Shown piece after piece: positions 51,382 through 56,723 of a stretch of DNA of 64,000 bases. A model generated the notes under the pieces. That model worked only from the letters and a program-made list of their open reading frames with translations. It ran no database searches and was not told the origin of the DNA. The translations under genes and the position numbers were made by a program. Each line of letters begins with the position of its first letter. Positions within the stretch are counted from its first letter, which is position 1. This stretch comes from Anaerolineae bacterium (lineage in GTDB: Bacteria > Chloroflexota > Anaerolineae > Aggregatilineales > Phototrophicaceae), in the NCBI GenBank assembly GCA_022841825.1, contig JALHQT010000005.1:310001-374000 (forward strand). Reading direction: 5' to 3'.

Positions 51382-51897
51382 TTAGTGTACATCCGGTGTG
51401 TACGGCGCTTCGGCGTGGATCGCGCCGACGAACATCGGCAGATCCATGTGACCGAGCATCTGCCGCACTGCCTGCGATTCGCCCAGGTGATACCAGTAAT
51501 GATAGGTCATGCGCAGCATCACCGAGCCAATGCTCTCGCGATGCGGTTTGCCGTTGACCTCCCAATGCGTGATCATGACCTCAGATGTGAGCGTGTCCAG
51601 ATAGGCATCGGCGGCAGTGGTGATCTCCTCCCAGCACGCCCACATCGCGTCGAGCGGCGGCGTCGAGGCAGGCTTGCCGATCCCCGCCAGGTCGTTGATC
51701 TCCGGATGAGGCGTCAGCCCTTGCGCACGTGTCAGCCAGCAGAGCTGCTCATGCCATGTCAGATGCGCCACCATCCAGCCAAGCGAATTCATCGGCAGGA
51801 TACGTCGCTCACCGTCTTCATTCGAGACGCCGTAAATCGCCCGTCTGAACTCAGTGCGAGCAAAGCGCAGTTGGACGACGAGAGGGTGTGCGATCAG
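51382..51897 (-). CDS. DinB-like protein, possible CTG start
   Basis: A 171-residue four-helix-bundle protein: NSLGWMVAHLTWHEQLCWLT, WACWEEITTAADAYLDT and RMTYHYWYHLGESQAVRQML with the family's histidines. No ATG lies near the start. GGAGG sits 6 bases before a CTG at 51897 that overlaps the stop of the SGNH gene (CTGA), a translation-coupling layout. The first ATG is 36 codons further in and would cut off a helix. The CTG start is an inference. Confidence 0.7.
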   Translation of the reverse strand: MIAHPLVVQLRFARTEFRRAIYGVSNEDGERRILPMNSLGWMVAHLTWHEQLCWLTRAQGLTPHPEINDLAGIGKPASTPPLDAMWACWEEITTAADAYLDTLTSEVMITHWEVNGKPHRESIGSVMLRMTYHYWYHLGESQAVRQMLGHMDLPMFVGAIHAEAPYTPDVH

Positions 51898-53012
51898 GAT
51901 GAGCCTCCAGGAATAAGCCGCGCAGCACCGATTGTAGCGGCGATCAGCGCTGCCTGCCGCTCCGTCCCTTGCGCCGTCATATGCACATGATCGCCCTGGT
52001 AGTACGCGCCGTCGCCCATCTCCGCCGCCAGATCGACCAGCGTCACATCCAGCGCTCCCGCCATCGCACGCACCAGGGCGTTCTGCTGGTCGATGGCGCG
52101 GATCAGCGCCTCCGCCTGGTACTGCTCCGGCGTCGCATCGACCTGCGCTTGCAGCGCCGCCCGATTCCAGGCGAAGGTCGTGAAGACGACCTGCGCGCCC
52201 GCTGACCGCGCCAGCCCCGCCATGCCGCGCAGGTTGCGCTCGAAGAGCATGGGCGGGTTGGCGGCGAGCGTATCGAGCGGGTTGACGCCTTGCGGCTCCG
52301 GCGGGCACAGCCGAGTTGGGGCGAGCTGCGCATCGAAGACCGCCGGGTCGGGCATCCAGCCCAGGCGGATGGCGACCAGGCGGTAGAGCGCGCTCGGCGG
52401 CAGCGGAGTCTCATCCACCGTCCAGATGCCGCGATCCAAGCCCATGCCAAAGAGCGGGTTCTCGCCCGCCGTGCAATCGGGCGATTGGAAGATGCGCAGC
52501 GCCGCGTCGTTGACGCCGTCGTAGACGATGACGACATCCGGTTCGAGCGCTACGCCGCGCGTCGCCAGATTGACGAGTGAGTCGAGGCTGAAGTAGCCCG
52601 GCACGCCCAGGTTGACGACTTCGACACGGTCGCCATACGTCTCACGCAGCAGGCGCTGAAGCTGGGCGGGGTACGCTCCGTCGGCGGTCAGCGCGTGCCC
52701 GTAGGTGGTCGATCCGCCGAGCGCGACGATGCGGAAGACGCCCTCCGGCTTAGGGATCGCCACGTCCTGCCCGCGAAAGCCGCGCGCGTTCACGTCGTCG
52801 CGCGCCGGGTTGAGCGCGTAATTGAGGTACGGGATGCCGATCAGCTCGGCGTCGCGGTCGGCGATCTGCTCACGCGCATCGAGGTAGCGCACGCGCTCCT
52901 GCTCTGTACCGCGCAGCGAGAACCAGACGCGCACGCCGACTTCAAGCACGACGAGCGTGAGGAGGAAGGTGACGAGGATGACGATGGAGGGTCGTGTAAA
53001 GCGTGTGGGCAT
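51894..53012 (-). CDS. Membrane-anchored SGNH-hydrolase-like protein
   Basis: A 372-residue protein. An N-terminal anchor (SIVILVTFLLTLVVLEVGVRVW) is followed by an SGNH domain: block I IVALGGSTTYGHAL with Ser, block III-like VYDGVNDAALR with Asn, and the C-terminal DHVHMTAQGTE with Asp/His. Likely an extracytoplasmic esterase acting on acetylated wall or lipid substrates. The ATG at 53012 is used; a TTG four codons earlier is rejected. Coupled to the DinB-like gene downstream. Confidence 0.82.
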   Translation of the reverse strand: MPTRFTRPSIVILVTFLLTLVVLEVGVRVWFSLRGTEQERVRYLDAREQIADRDAELIGIPYLNYALNPARDDVNARGFRGQDVAIPKPEGVFRIVALGGSTTYGHALTADGAYPAQLQRLLRETYGDRVEVVNLGVPGYFSLDSLVNLATRGVALEPDVVIVYDGVNDAALRIFQSPDCTAGENPLFGMGLDRGIWTVDETPLPPSALYRLVAIRLGWMPDPAVFDAQLAPTRLCPPEPQGVNPLDTLAANPPMLFERNLRGMAGLARSAGAQVVFTTFAWNRAALQAQVDATPEQYQAEALIRAIDQQNALVRAMAGALDVTLVDLAAEMGDGAYYQGDHVHMTAQGTERQAALIAATIGAARLIPGGSS

Positions 53013-53164
53013 CAACGAACTCAAAGTGCATCCGTAAAGGCTCGATTATGCCTCAAATGTGAGAACGCCGCCTTTATCGCGAATCAGTTGTGCGAAGCGA
53101 ATGCGATCATCCAGCGCTAACGTGCCACACTTCCCTCACTCATTTGTGAAATTTATCATTATCA

Positions 53165-53190
53165 CGATGTTCAGAATATTTTGAACATCG
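53165..53190. promoter_or_regulatory. Inverted repeat upstream of the rhodopsin gene
   Basis: CGATGTTCA (53165-53173) and TGAACATCG (53182-53190) are exact reverse complements around an AT-rich 8-base centre, 34 bp before the GTG start. It could be an operator or an mRNA hairpin in the leader. No known light-regulator consensus was matched. Confidence 0.6.
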
Positions 53191-53223
53191 TGGACGTTTT
53201 TGTTTTCTCATGTGAGGTGTATC

Positions 53224-54024
53224 GTGCCTGAACTGTCTATCTCACAGTTTGGAGTGGTGTATAACGCCTTCTCCTTTACTTTTGCCGCCATGATGGCGAC
53301 GTTCATTTTCCTGCTCCTGTCACGCAGCAACATCGCCCCACAGTATCGCGCTGCCATCACCATGTCGGCACTTGTGGTCGCCATCGCCGGTTACCATTAC
53401 TTCCGCATCTTCGAAAGCTGGGATGCCGCGTTCGTCCTTTCAAGCGTTGCGGATGGTGGGGCACGCTACGTCGCCAGCGGCAGCCTTTTCAATGACACAT
53501 ATCGATACATCGATTGGTTGTTGACGGTGCCCTTGCTGGTGGCAGAGCTGATCGCAGTGATGACTCTCGCCCCTGGCAAGAAGGGTGCTCTCACATTCCG
53601 ACTGGCGCTCGCCGCCGCGCTGATGGTTATCCTGGGTTACCCTGGCGAAATCGCTGGCGATACGGCTTCGCGCGCGCTCTGGGGCTTCATCAGCACCATC
53701 CCCTTTATCTACATCGTCTATGAGCTGTTTGTTGGGCTGGGACCTGCGATCCAAAAAGAGACGGGTGAAGCAAAGACACTCCTGAGCAATATTCGTCTGC
53801 TTCTGCTGGGGACGTGGGGCTTCTACCCCATCGTCTACCTGCTGCCCATTCTGGTCGGCTCGACGGTTGACGCCAACACCATTGTCGCCGTTCAAATTGG
53901 CTACTGCATCGCGGATGTGGCAGCAAAGTGCGGCTATGGCATCATGATCTACGCGATTGCTCGCGCAAAGAGTCGGCAGGAAGGTTACGACTTGTCTTCT
54001 CGTGCAATTGCAGCGAGCGGTTAG
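53224..54024 (+). CDS. Proteorhodopsin/xanthorhodopsin-type light-driven proton pump
   Basis: A 266-residue seven-helix retinal protein. TGAGG 6 bases before GTG 53224 fixes the start. With this start the key residues fall on green-proteorhodopsin numbers: Asp97 (acceptor), Thr101, Glu108 (donor) in RYIDWLLTVPLLVAEL, and Leu105, the green-tuning residue. Lys235 in DVAAKCGYG binds retinal; His58 on helix B matches the acceptor-coupled His75. Gly154 lies 57 residues after Asp97, the same spacing as the carotenoid-fenestration glycine in Gloeobacter rhodopsin. It should pump protons outward. No retinal or carotenoid synthesis gene is in the window. Confidence 0.93.
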   Translation: MPELSISQFGVVYNAFSFTFAAMMATFIFLLLSRSNIAPQYRAAITMSALVVAIAGYHYFRIFESWDAAFVLSSVADGGARYVASGSLFNDTYRYIDWLLTVPLLVAELIAVMTLAPGKKGALTFRLALAAALMVILGYPGEIAGDTASRALWGFISTIPFIYIVYELFVGLGPAIQKETGEAKTLLSNIRLLLLGTWGFYPIVYLLPILVGSTVDANTIVAVQIGYCIADVAAKCGYGIMIYAIARAKSRQEGYDLSSRAIAASG

Positions 54025-54155: not shown

Positions 54156-56723
54156 TCAGGTTTGATCCGCGCCCCACGCCGCCAGCACCTGCCGGATGTG
54201 TTCGGGATCGCTGGGGTTGAGAGTCAGCGCCATCTGCATATCGCGTATCGCCGCACCGCTGTCGCCGCGCCCATTGAGCAAGCGGGCACGACGGATATAA
54301 CCGTCGGGGTCGTCAGGGTCGCACTCGACCGCTTTGTAGAAATCCGCCAACGCGCCATCCACGTCGCCCAACTCCTCGCGCAGCACCCCGCGATTGTAGT
54401 AGGCGTAACCCGCCTCGGCATCCAAGACGATGATCGCGCGGTAATCATCCAGCGCGCCTGCCAGGTCATCGCTGGCATAACGCAGCCGTGCGCGCGCGCC
54501 GAGATAGGCGATAGCCTGCGGCTCAAGCTGGATCGCACGATCCAAGTCGCCCAACGCGCCCTGGGCGTCGCCCAGCGTCTCACGCGCCTTAGCGCGCTGA
54601 TAATATGCCCCGGCGTGATCCGGCTTGAGGGCGACCACGGCGTCAAAGTCCTGGCGCGCGCCTTCGGCATCGCCGTGTTCCAGTCGCAGCATCCCCCGGT
54701 TATAACGCGCGCTGGCGAATTGCGGATCGGCAGTACACGCCGCGTCGTAATCGGCGTAGGCGCTGTCCAGCGCACCACGCTGGTAGTGGGCGTTGCCTCG
54801 GTTGAAGTACGCCGCCGTCATCGCCGGGTCAAGCCGGAGCGCCTCGCCAAAGTCGGCGATTGCACCCTCCAGGTCGCCCAATGAATAACGCAGTGTCCCA
54901 CGATTGTAATACGCCTGCGTGAATGCCGGGTCATGATGGATCGTCGCGTCGAGATCGGCAATCGCTCGTTGGTAGTCGCCCCGCGCTTCGTAGATCTGCG
55001 CACGATTGTAGTAGGCGACGGCGAACTGCGAGTCCTTTTCCACCGCTGTCGTGTAATACTCCAAAGCCCGGTCAATCCCCCCGCGCTTATAGGCGAGATT
55101 GCCCAGGTTGTAGTAGACCTCAGCAAAATCCGGGTTGAGCGTCAGCGCGTGGTTCCAGGCGGCTTCGGCTTGTTCCAACCGCTCCAGACGATAGCAGGCG
55201 TTGCCAATGTTGTAGTGGGTTGCCGCGTAATCGGGTTTGATCTGCGCGGCATGGCGATAGGCAACAAGCGACTGCTCGTAGTCGCCCCGTCGATACTGGG
55301 TGCTGCCGATGTTGTACTGCGCGATCCAGTTGCCCGGTTCGATCTGGGCTGCATGCTGATAATCCGCCAATGCTCCATCAAGATCGCCCTGCATGTCGCG
55401 GATGGTGCCGCGATTGTTATAGACCAGCGCAGGCTGCGGTTCGATCTGGATCGCAGCGTCGAAATCTTCCAGCGCCGCGCGCATCTCGCCTCTTTTGTAA
55501 TAGACGTTCGCGCGCAGGCGGTACGCCTCCGACGAAGGTTGGCGACGAAGCGCTTCCGTCAGATCCGCCAGTGCACCTTCCTGGTCGCCGCTCGTCGTCC
55601 GGGCGATGGCACGCAGGATGTAGGTAGGCGTGTCGCCGCGCAGTGCGACGACCTCGTTGTAATCGGCAAGCGCGCGCTCGCGGTCACCCTGCTGGCTGGC
55701 GAGCAGGGCGCGTCGGAAGTATGCCTGCGCAAAATCCGAATTCAGGCGAATCGTTCTGCTGTAGTCGGCGCTCGCGCCCTCGGCATCTCCCAAGGCTTCG
55801 CGCAGTGTCCCGCGATTCAGATACGCCTCGGCAAAGTCTGGGCTGTTGGCGACCGCCCGATTGTAGTCCGCCAATGCTTCGCTGTGCTCGCCAAGTGCCT
55901 GATGAAGCAGCCCACGATGGTTGTAGGCGATCCCGAGCGTGGGATCGAGCTTGATTGCCTGCGTGAAATCCGCAAACGCACCATCGTAATTCTTGCGCAT
56001 CTTGCGCAGCAGACCACGATTGATGTAGAAGGTCGGCACGCTGCCGTTCAATCGAATCGCCTGCGTATAATCCGACAGCGCGCCATCGGCATCGCCCGTT
56101 CTGGAGCGTACGACACCCCGGTTGTTGTATGCCCAGTCGAAGTTCGGGTCAAGCCGGATCGCCTCGGAAAAGGCAGCCAATGCTCGCGCCGTGTCGGCAT
56201 CCAGGCACTCCAAGCCCTGCTGCAAAAGCCGCTGCGCGTCCAGCGACTCGGTCGCGACCACTGGGGCAGCCAGGGGTGGTCGCTGCGCCCCGCTTGGCGC
56301 GAGAAACTGTTTGCGCAGTTTTTCCAGTGCTTCATCCAGATAGCCATCGGGGACTTTCAGGCGGTTGAAGCGACTGAAGGGAGTTACGATGCTGTCTGGC
56401 AGGTAACGTTCGATGTCCTTGGGGTCAAAGCCATCGACTTCGAGCGGGATGACGACACGCCCTTGTTCCATCGCGTAGAGGATTTCGCGCAGCACCCAAT
56501 CGCCTGCTTCGAGGCAGCGCGGCAGTGTACCAGGCGTCAACAGCGGCAGGAAGTAGGTGCGCACGCCGATCTCAGTCAGGATCTTCGTGTCAAACGCCCC
56601 GCTGCCGATGCTCTGCGTATCGAGAAAGACATCGTAGCCGTGCTCGGTCAGGTCCTTGTAGACGTACTGCGCAAGGTATTTGCCCGTATCACGGCGATAA
56701 CTGAGGAAAACGCTGGTGTTCAT
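54156..56723 (-). CDS. TIR-domain protein with 20 tetratricopeptide repeats
   Basis: An 855-residue protein. Residues 1-145 form a TIR domain (SVFLSYRRDTGKYLAQYVYK; candidate catalytic Glu80 in WVLREILYAM). After a Pro/Ala linker come 20 consecutive 34-residue TPRs (GDxxGALxDYxxAIxLDPx) up to residue 845. Unlike the TIR protein at 21417, it has no NTPase domain, so the TPRs alone would sense or scaffold. TIR-TPR proteins occur in bacterial NAD-depleting systems but a defence role is not shown. Monocistronic; convergent with the rhodopsin gene and co-directional with the dehydratase gene 24 bp upstream. Confidence 0.87.
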   Translation of the reverse strand: MNTSVFLSYRRDTGKYLAQYVYKDLTEHGYDVFLDTQSIGSGAFDTKILTEIGVRTYFLPLLTPGTLPRCLEAGDWVLREILYAMEQGRVVIPLEVDGFDPKDIERYLPDSIVTPFSRFNRLKVPDGYLDEALEKLRKQFLAPSGAQRPPLAAPVVATESLDAQRLLQQGLECLDADTARALAAFSEAIRLDPNFDWAYNNRGVVRSRTGDADGALSDYTQAIRLNGSVPTFYINRGLLRKMRKNYDGAFADFTQAIKLDPTLGIAYNHRGLLHQALGEHSEALADYNRAVANSPDFAEAYLNRGTLREALGDAEGASADYSRTIRLNSDFAQAYFRRALLASQQGDRERALADYNEVVALRGDTPTYILRAIARTTSGDQEGALADLTEALRRQPSSEAYRLRANVYYKRGEMRAALEDFDAAIQIEPQPALVYNNRGTIRDMQGDLDGALADYQHAAQIEPGNWIAQYNIGSTQYRRGDYEQSLVAYRHAAQIKPDYAATHYNIGNACYRLERLEQAEAAWNHALTLNPDFAEVYYNLGNLAYKRGGIDRALEYYTTAVEKDSQFAVAYYNRAQIYEARGDYQRAIADLDATIHHDPAFTQAYYNRGTLRYSLGDLEGAIADFGEALRLDPAMTAAYFNRGNAHYQRGALDSAYADYDAACTADPQFASARYNRGMLRLEHGDAEGARQDFDAVVALKPDHAGAYYQRAKARETLGDAQGALGDLDRAIQLEPQAIAYLGARARLRYASDDLAGALDDYRAIIVLDAEAGYAYYNRGVLREELGDVDGALADFYKAVECDPDDPDGYIRRARLLNGRGDSGAAIRDMQMALTLNPSDPEHIRQVLAAWGADQT

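Follow-up and report, generated by a model that had tools for sequence, protein, structure and literature searches.

A xanthorhodopsin-family gene of an Anaerolineae bacterium and the conserved, probable operator that precedes it

The DNA analysed here (the window, 64,000 nucleotides; C5:310001-374000 in a genome of 5.9 Mb and 21 contigs) carries the single rhodopsin gene of an Anaerolineae bacterium whose nearest named relatives are Chloroflexota MAGs. The locus raises the question of which kind of rhodopsin is encoded, how the gene is controlled and from where its product obtains retinal. To our knowledge, little is known about the switching-on of rhodopsin genes in non-marine groups. Judged from the sequences and a structural model, the likely explanation as a whole is that of a proton pump of the xanthorhodopsin (XR) family placed under an operator of four half-sites, with retinal supplied from elsewhere in the genome or by uptake.

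The gene occupies positions 53224..54024 of the plus strand, from a GTG start codon to a stop codon at 54022-54024, and encodes a protein of 266 amino acids that matches PF01036 with 127.5 bits. An alternative TTG start at 53200 would add eight amino acids. The GTG at 53224 is supported as the start by a probable ribosome binding site, GAGGTG, read directly from the plus strand at 53214..53219, four nucleotides 5' of it. With this GTG as residue 1, all the residues named in an earlier sequence-only reading of the locus (His58, Asp97, Thr101, Leu105, Glu108, Gly154 and Lys235) are present. By alignment, Asp97 is the acceptor, Glu108 the donor and Thr101 the threonine between them, His58 is the histidine beside the acceptor and Lys235 the retinal lysine; the histidine, aspartate, threonine, leucine, glutamate and lysine are conserved across every xanthorhodopsin-type row listed. 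The codons of Asp97 to Glu108 span 53512..53547 (computed as 53224 + 3(n-1)), and alignment combined with reading of the open reading frame places the codon of Gly154, at the fenestration position, at 53683..53685 and that of Lys235, the site of the retinal Schiff base, at 53926..53928, all on the plus strand. The frame and the residues support the earlier claim of a complete pump with a proton-pump motif. The identity of these residue numbers with those of green proteorhodopsin would presumably reflect merely the length of the N-terminus.

As a statement of descent, the label "proteorhodopsin-type" given in the same reading has to be replaced. A sequence search against solved structures returned 3ddl, xanthorhodopsin, as the best PDB match with 297 bits; the other solved relatives are Kin4B8 (243 bits), Gloeobacter rhodopsin (GR, 243 bits) and TR (236 bits), with psXR also within 236-243 bits. 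Outside the set of XR, TR and actinorhodopsin, scores reach at most about 110 bits: sodium pumps score about 101 to 110 bits (the KR2 type about 101), and green proteorhodopsin 79-82 bits, so far under XR that proteorhodopsin proper was rejected. The AlphaFold2 model of the protein (pLDDT 88.9) has 3ddl as its top Foldseek match (TM 0.89-0.95), and ranks 1-11 of this PDB search are exclusively XR, TR, psXR, Kin4B8 or GR. In a tree of 59 rows, with the sphingomonad rows thinned and SH-aLRT as the only support measure, the protein belongs to a set of 22 Chloroflexota rows (support 90), in which its closest neighbours are loci L002-L006 (support 94). On match scores, tree and predicted structure, the protein is a member of the xanthorhodopsin family and ordinary by kind, and from its sequence and predicted fold we infer a light-driven outward proton pump. 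With Salinibacter ruber xanthorhodopsin (3ddl) it has 53% identity over the structure alignment and the aspartate, threonine, glutamate, histidine and lysine positions in common; the segment ahead of helix E, the place of XR Leu148, is shorter by three residues in this protein.

Three database titles among the compared loci deserve mention. L049 (CAMAXZ010000048.1) and L021 (CAMDWA010000173.1) come from MAGs titled Klebsiella pneumoniae and Thermoflexus hugenholtzii, respectively, titles that may be wrong; the tree places their rhodopsins with Myxococcota-type rows and with MAG REEB501, which has an identical protein. L009 (JAHHHY010000011.1) is titled Pleurocapsa minor, a cyanobacterium, which looks wrong; it corresponds to G012:C18, and G012 belongs to the same genus as the source genome.

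In the proposed mechanism, light would isomerise the retinal on Lys235, the proton would pass to Asp97 with His58, and Glu108 would reprotonate the Schiff base. Gly154 would keep the fenestration open, and a carotenoid beside the retinal could possibly pass light on. The claimed correspondence of Gly154 to Gly178 of Gloeobacter rhodopsin agrees with a gap-free alignment, in which Asp97 falls on GR 121 and Gly154 on GR 178; the same residue aligns with XR Gly156 and Kin4B8 Gly153, and the fenestration thus bears a glycine and no bulky residue. This glycine had been singled out as a candidate antenna feature of the gene. It is, however, no distinction, since it is found in 111 of the 114 aligned rows (counting duplicate loci) and is therefore a trait of the sampled clade.

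The nature of any pigment at this site can be considered by comparison with two known pockets. According to the available part of PMC13093654, the pocket residues of Kin4B8 (PDB 7ytb, 8i2z) for hydroxylated carotenoids include Gly153, Thr157, Tyr204, Ser208 and Tyr209. The first three correspond to Gly154, Thr158 and Tyr205 here, whereas Ser208 and Tyr209 are replaced by Ile209 and by Leu210 or Val211, and this pair of Kin4B8-like polar residues is absent from the aligned protein. The loss of these polar anchors disfavours a hydroxylated pigment, as had been proposed from the sequence. The residues that we take to be the salinixanthin contacts of Salinibacter ruber XR are Leu148, Phe157, Thr160, Asn191, Leu197, Ile205, Tyr207, Met208 and Met211. 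Six of these (Phe157, Thr160, Asn191, Leu197, Ile205 and Tyr207) are conserved here, whereas Met208 and Met211 correspond to Leu206 and Ile209, and Leu148 lies in the gap. A carotenoid antenna on this rhodopsin is possible, and for any that is bound we would expect XR-like rather than Kin4B8-like chemistry. The same kind of gene is described from the same phylum in freshwater and mat Chloroflexi (Mehrshad 2018, PMC6169038; Ward 2018, PMC5826079; Thiel 2017, PMC5459899), and the available portions of these papers already treat the possible antenna and the missing oxygenase, including Chloroflexi rhodopsins in which as many as 10 of the 12 salinixanthin contacts are present (Mehrshad 2018) and a xanthorhodopsin in Ca. 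Thermofonsia (Ward 2018). Chloroflexi xanthorhodopsins with antenna residues are already published; new here are the control element and a group-wide table of missing retinal enzymes.

The control element came to attention as a perfect 9-bp inverted repeat at 53165-53190. The repeat is real, but this description understated it: the perfect arms measure 11 bp (53163-53173 and 53182-53192) and enclose a loop of 8. A bare repeat of this kind is not rare, as perfect 11-bp arms occur in 21 start/loop combinations, many of them nested, in the 64-kb window; it is conservation in relatives, not the repeat itself, that raises it above chance. Alignment with the 13 nearest rhodopsin loci reveals the repeat to be the centre of a symmetric element of 34 bp with the consensus TTCA-N5-TTCA-N8-TGAA-N5-TGAA, which in the window reads ATCA-N5-TTCA-N8-TGAA-N5-TGGA (53161..53194, without assigned strand). 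The exact core TTCAN8TGAA is found within 220 bp upstream of the gene in all 14 loci (the window and L002-L014), compared with 0.86% in shuffles, and the 22-bp site starts 51-78 bp 5' of the start codon in these loci. Over the whole extent of L002-L014, there is one further exact match (L005:8931). Across 10 representatives, identity falls from 100% (core half-sites) to 70% (outer half-sites), 46% (remaining columns of the element) and 29% (flanks). The outer half-sites lie 9 bp off on both sides, where 3.1 and 3.4 of 4 letters agree; at the other offsets (5-8 and 10-14) the agreement is 0.5-1.7 of 4 letters.

These properties suggest that the 34-bp element is probably an operator, kept before the rhodopsin gene by many relatives. 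Among the 21 Chloroflexota-type loci L002-L022, it is absent from seven remoter ones (L015-L018, L020-L022), and L019 has only a weak N9 form. Neighbour genes recur chiefly within L002-L006, with a few scattered exceptions, among them the pairs L014/L019 and L008/L010. As the gene neighbours are mostly different outside L002-L006, the element appears to accompany the rhodopsin and not the region, staying with the gene while most of its neighbours change. The listings of literature searches contain no published description of the element, and the available portions of the Chloroflexi xanthorhodopsin papers (PMC6169038, PMC5826079, PMC5459899) mention no promoter element.

In several relatives, the alignment places a TATATT-like box 5' of the element. 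The corresponding place in the window (53153..53158, plus strand) is weak (TTATCA), and a promoter scan of the window called no box there. Because the box precedes the element in the relatives, the element would lie over the transcription start, in the place of a repressor. The probable transcription start is within the element or just 5' of it. A regulator, as two dimers or as a tetramer, would occupy the four TTCA/TGAA half-sites and probably repress the rhodopsin gene. Repression might last until light or pigment is present, as suggested by the genes behind the element in relatives.

The inverted repeat might instead act as RNA: folded into a hairpin at the 5' terminus of the rhodopsin mRNA, it would protect the message or control its translation. 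Stable RNA folds are indeed predicted for several loci (z of -2.9 for the window, -3.9 for L009 and -3.7 for L014), although the helix forms no part of those of L008 and L010. The arms also covary, with 15 cells altered on both sides compared with 8.4 in shuffles and 86.8% paired compared with 81.5%, yet any DNA palindrome gives the same covariation. Moreover, the pairing is broken in 24 of 182 cells, the core TTCA/TGAA letters are invariant, and the half-sites recur at 9 bp, which is needless for a simple hairpin. The fixed N8, the 9-bp repeats, the invariant core letters and, in several loci, the broken pairs speak for a bound protein, and a function as hairpin appears rather unlikely. The scan also returned a terminator-like call with the tail ACGTTTTTGT, which would make the repeat an intrinsic terminator for a transcript entering from the left. 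The upstream gene (51894-53024, minus strand) is, however, oriented away, and the T run is not conserved in the relatives; on this ground the reading, highly improbable, was rejected.

A protein-bound operator of this form recalls those of CarH/LitR, which also target pigment genes and comprise several half-sites each; in some loci, TGAACA fits TnnACA. In the available part of PMC9304148, CarH binds tandem 11-bp direct repeats, whereas the element here is inverted with a 9-12-9 spacing. A CarH operator was rejected on this spacing: in a comparison that used the TTCA/TGAA half-site alone, offset 11 gave 0.8 and 0.6 of 4 letters and offset 9 gave 3.1 and 3.4.

The distribution of the probable operator beyond this gene was followed with two descriptions of it. 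The strict pattern AYKTTCAN8TGAAMRT was shaped on rhodopsin promoters, which makes genome-wide counts partly circular. It has one match in the source genome, the rhodopsin element, and thus no regulon is demonstrable in this genome. Near the genome's own crt genes or oxygenase, exact TTCAN8TGAA does not occur in L110 or L138, and R1, a sequence-only model built from the 14 sites of the window and L002-L014, has no match in L110, L138 or L187. Across 151 genomes of the group, the strict pattern has 63 sites, compared with 19 for the reversed control, and by position eight of the 63 are xanthorhodopsin promoters. Outside its training set, R1 recovered the rhodopsin promoter of G071 (L097; 12.6 bits, E 0.11 and 0.036) and a partial (half) element 67-98 bp 5' of an NDQ rhodopsin gene (L104, G020; E 0.0027). 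A degenerate four-part form, TTCA-N5-TTTA-N8-TAAA, is visible by eye 5' of another NDQ rhodopsin gene (L106), and L105, L108 and L109 have fragments of the element at most. NDQ-motif rhodopsins, of the sodium-pump type, occur in five group genomes (L104, L105, L106, L108 and L109), and G045 and G114 hold an NDQ rhodopsin plus a xanthorhodopsin in the same genome.

One pattern site in G021, chosen out of the 63 sites in 151 genomes, lies directly 5' of a gene for a CrtD-like desaturase. Downstream of that gene, in the same orientation, come genes encoding a photolyase, a putative hydrolase (by eye), a redox protein, an SDR protein, phytoene synthase and a CarR-type cyclase. Most other pattern sites inspected lie within or 5' of unrelated genes (TetR genes, HemQ and others, one of which we take to encode an L21-like ribosomal protein). 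The two strongest non-rhodopsin copies under R1 (L204 1485-1533, 36.5 bits, and L222 1493-1539, 34 bits) and the strong sites of L216 and L218 stand before genes without visible light link, and the gene products near the L204 and L222 sites have no NCBIfam match. A further strong copy (L223 2516-2554, G020:C35; 29.5 bits) lies between a GNAT gene and a gene for a PUCC-family transporter. The transporter gene was discounted as a target, as the site is symmetric and a -10-like box faces away from the gene; this plus-strand box, together with a GC stem and T run on the same strand, points to a short transcript (about 100 nt). Tentatively, the 34-bp element may be the operator of an undescribed light/pigment regulon of Chloroflexota, in which one regulator other than CarH would govern both xanthorhodopsins and sodium-pump rhodopsins, and in some species a carotenoid-photolyase operon as well, the operator being co-transferred with the rhodopsin gene. 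A conserved operator could serve directly as bait for its regulator.

The third part of the question concerns retinal. The neighbours of the gene include a GDSL-type hydrolase gene and a TIR-TPR protein gene, both on the minus strand, and a retinal-related function was found in none of the seven window proteins scanned. PF00494, PF15461, PF03055 and PF18916 have no match in C5:310001-374000, in agreement with the earlier observation that retinal synthesis genes are missing nearby. A search of the genome for blh and crt genes, which had been suggested, showed crtB, crtI and a CarR-type cyclase, and no blh by PF15461. The crtI and crtB genes adjoin each other on C9, and the cyclase gene, found by PF18916 and confirmed by TIGR03462, lies at C5:267620-268444, some 95 kb away from that of the rhodopsin; PF05834 (CrtY/CrtL) has only a weak match in the genome (E 4.6e-4). 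A single divergent oxygenase of the RPE65 family is encoded at C9:139377-140300 (161.5 bits; best PDB match 6vcf), with three of the four conserved iron-binding histidines aligned. A phrase search of the literature for an archaeal oxygenase gave no match. In the proposed mechanism, beta-carotene would be made by crtB, crtI and the CarR-type cyclase elsewhere in the genome, and would be converted to retinal by the divergent oxygenase or by a yet-unknown enzyme; alternatively, retinal would be taken up.

Blh (PF15461) is found neither in the source genome (0/1) nor in the 151 group genomes (0/151); among control rhodopsin genomes, PF15461 was positive in 5/5 from outside Chloroflexota and in 0/4 Chloroflexota. 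The Bacteroidetes genome L031, related to Salinibacter ruber, has Blh, in contrast to the source genome. The group includes 21 xanthorhodopsin genomes, defined by matches of at least 57% identity, which excludes G016, G020, G021 and G028 (24-32%). RPE65-family genes occur in 17 of the 151 genomes, namely in 10/21 xanthorhodopsin genomes and 7/130 others, and the PF18916 cyclase occurs in 19/21 and 44/130, about half of the PF18916 genomes falling under the family's cut-off; both comparisons ignore relatedness. In eleven of the 21 xanthorhodopsin genomes, Blh and RPE65-family genes are both missing.

The lack of both enzymes in these genomes, and that of Blh throughout the group when all five controls from outside Chloroflexota are positive, could mean that the rhodopsin does not function in its host cell because retinal is lacking, or that it is a sensor. 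However, the pump residues are all conserved in the relatives, no transducer gene adjoins the rhodopsin gene, and the available part of Nakajima et al. 2020 reports a bacterium that lacks both blh and diox1 and in which retinal and pumping were observed. We therefore consider a nonfunctional or sensory rhodopsin improbable and retain the proton pump. The available text of Nakajima 2020 presents the retinal source of blh-less bacteria as an open question, and that of Thiel 2017 (PMC5459899) treats the same gap. The 11 rhodopsin genomes with a cyclase match and neither Blh nor RPE65 narrow down where the unknown retinal-forming enzyme may be sought.

Two minor observations concern neighbouring and distant loci. 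The TIR-TPR gene of the window (54156-56723, minus strand) encodes a protein of 855 amino acids in which a TIR domain is joined to an extended array of TPR repeats. Second Blh-family loci, L136 in Sphingomonas sp. Leaf34 and L137 in Novosphingopyxis, lie beside further distant rhodopsin matches, and the match in L137 has an NTQ-like motif.
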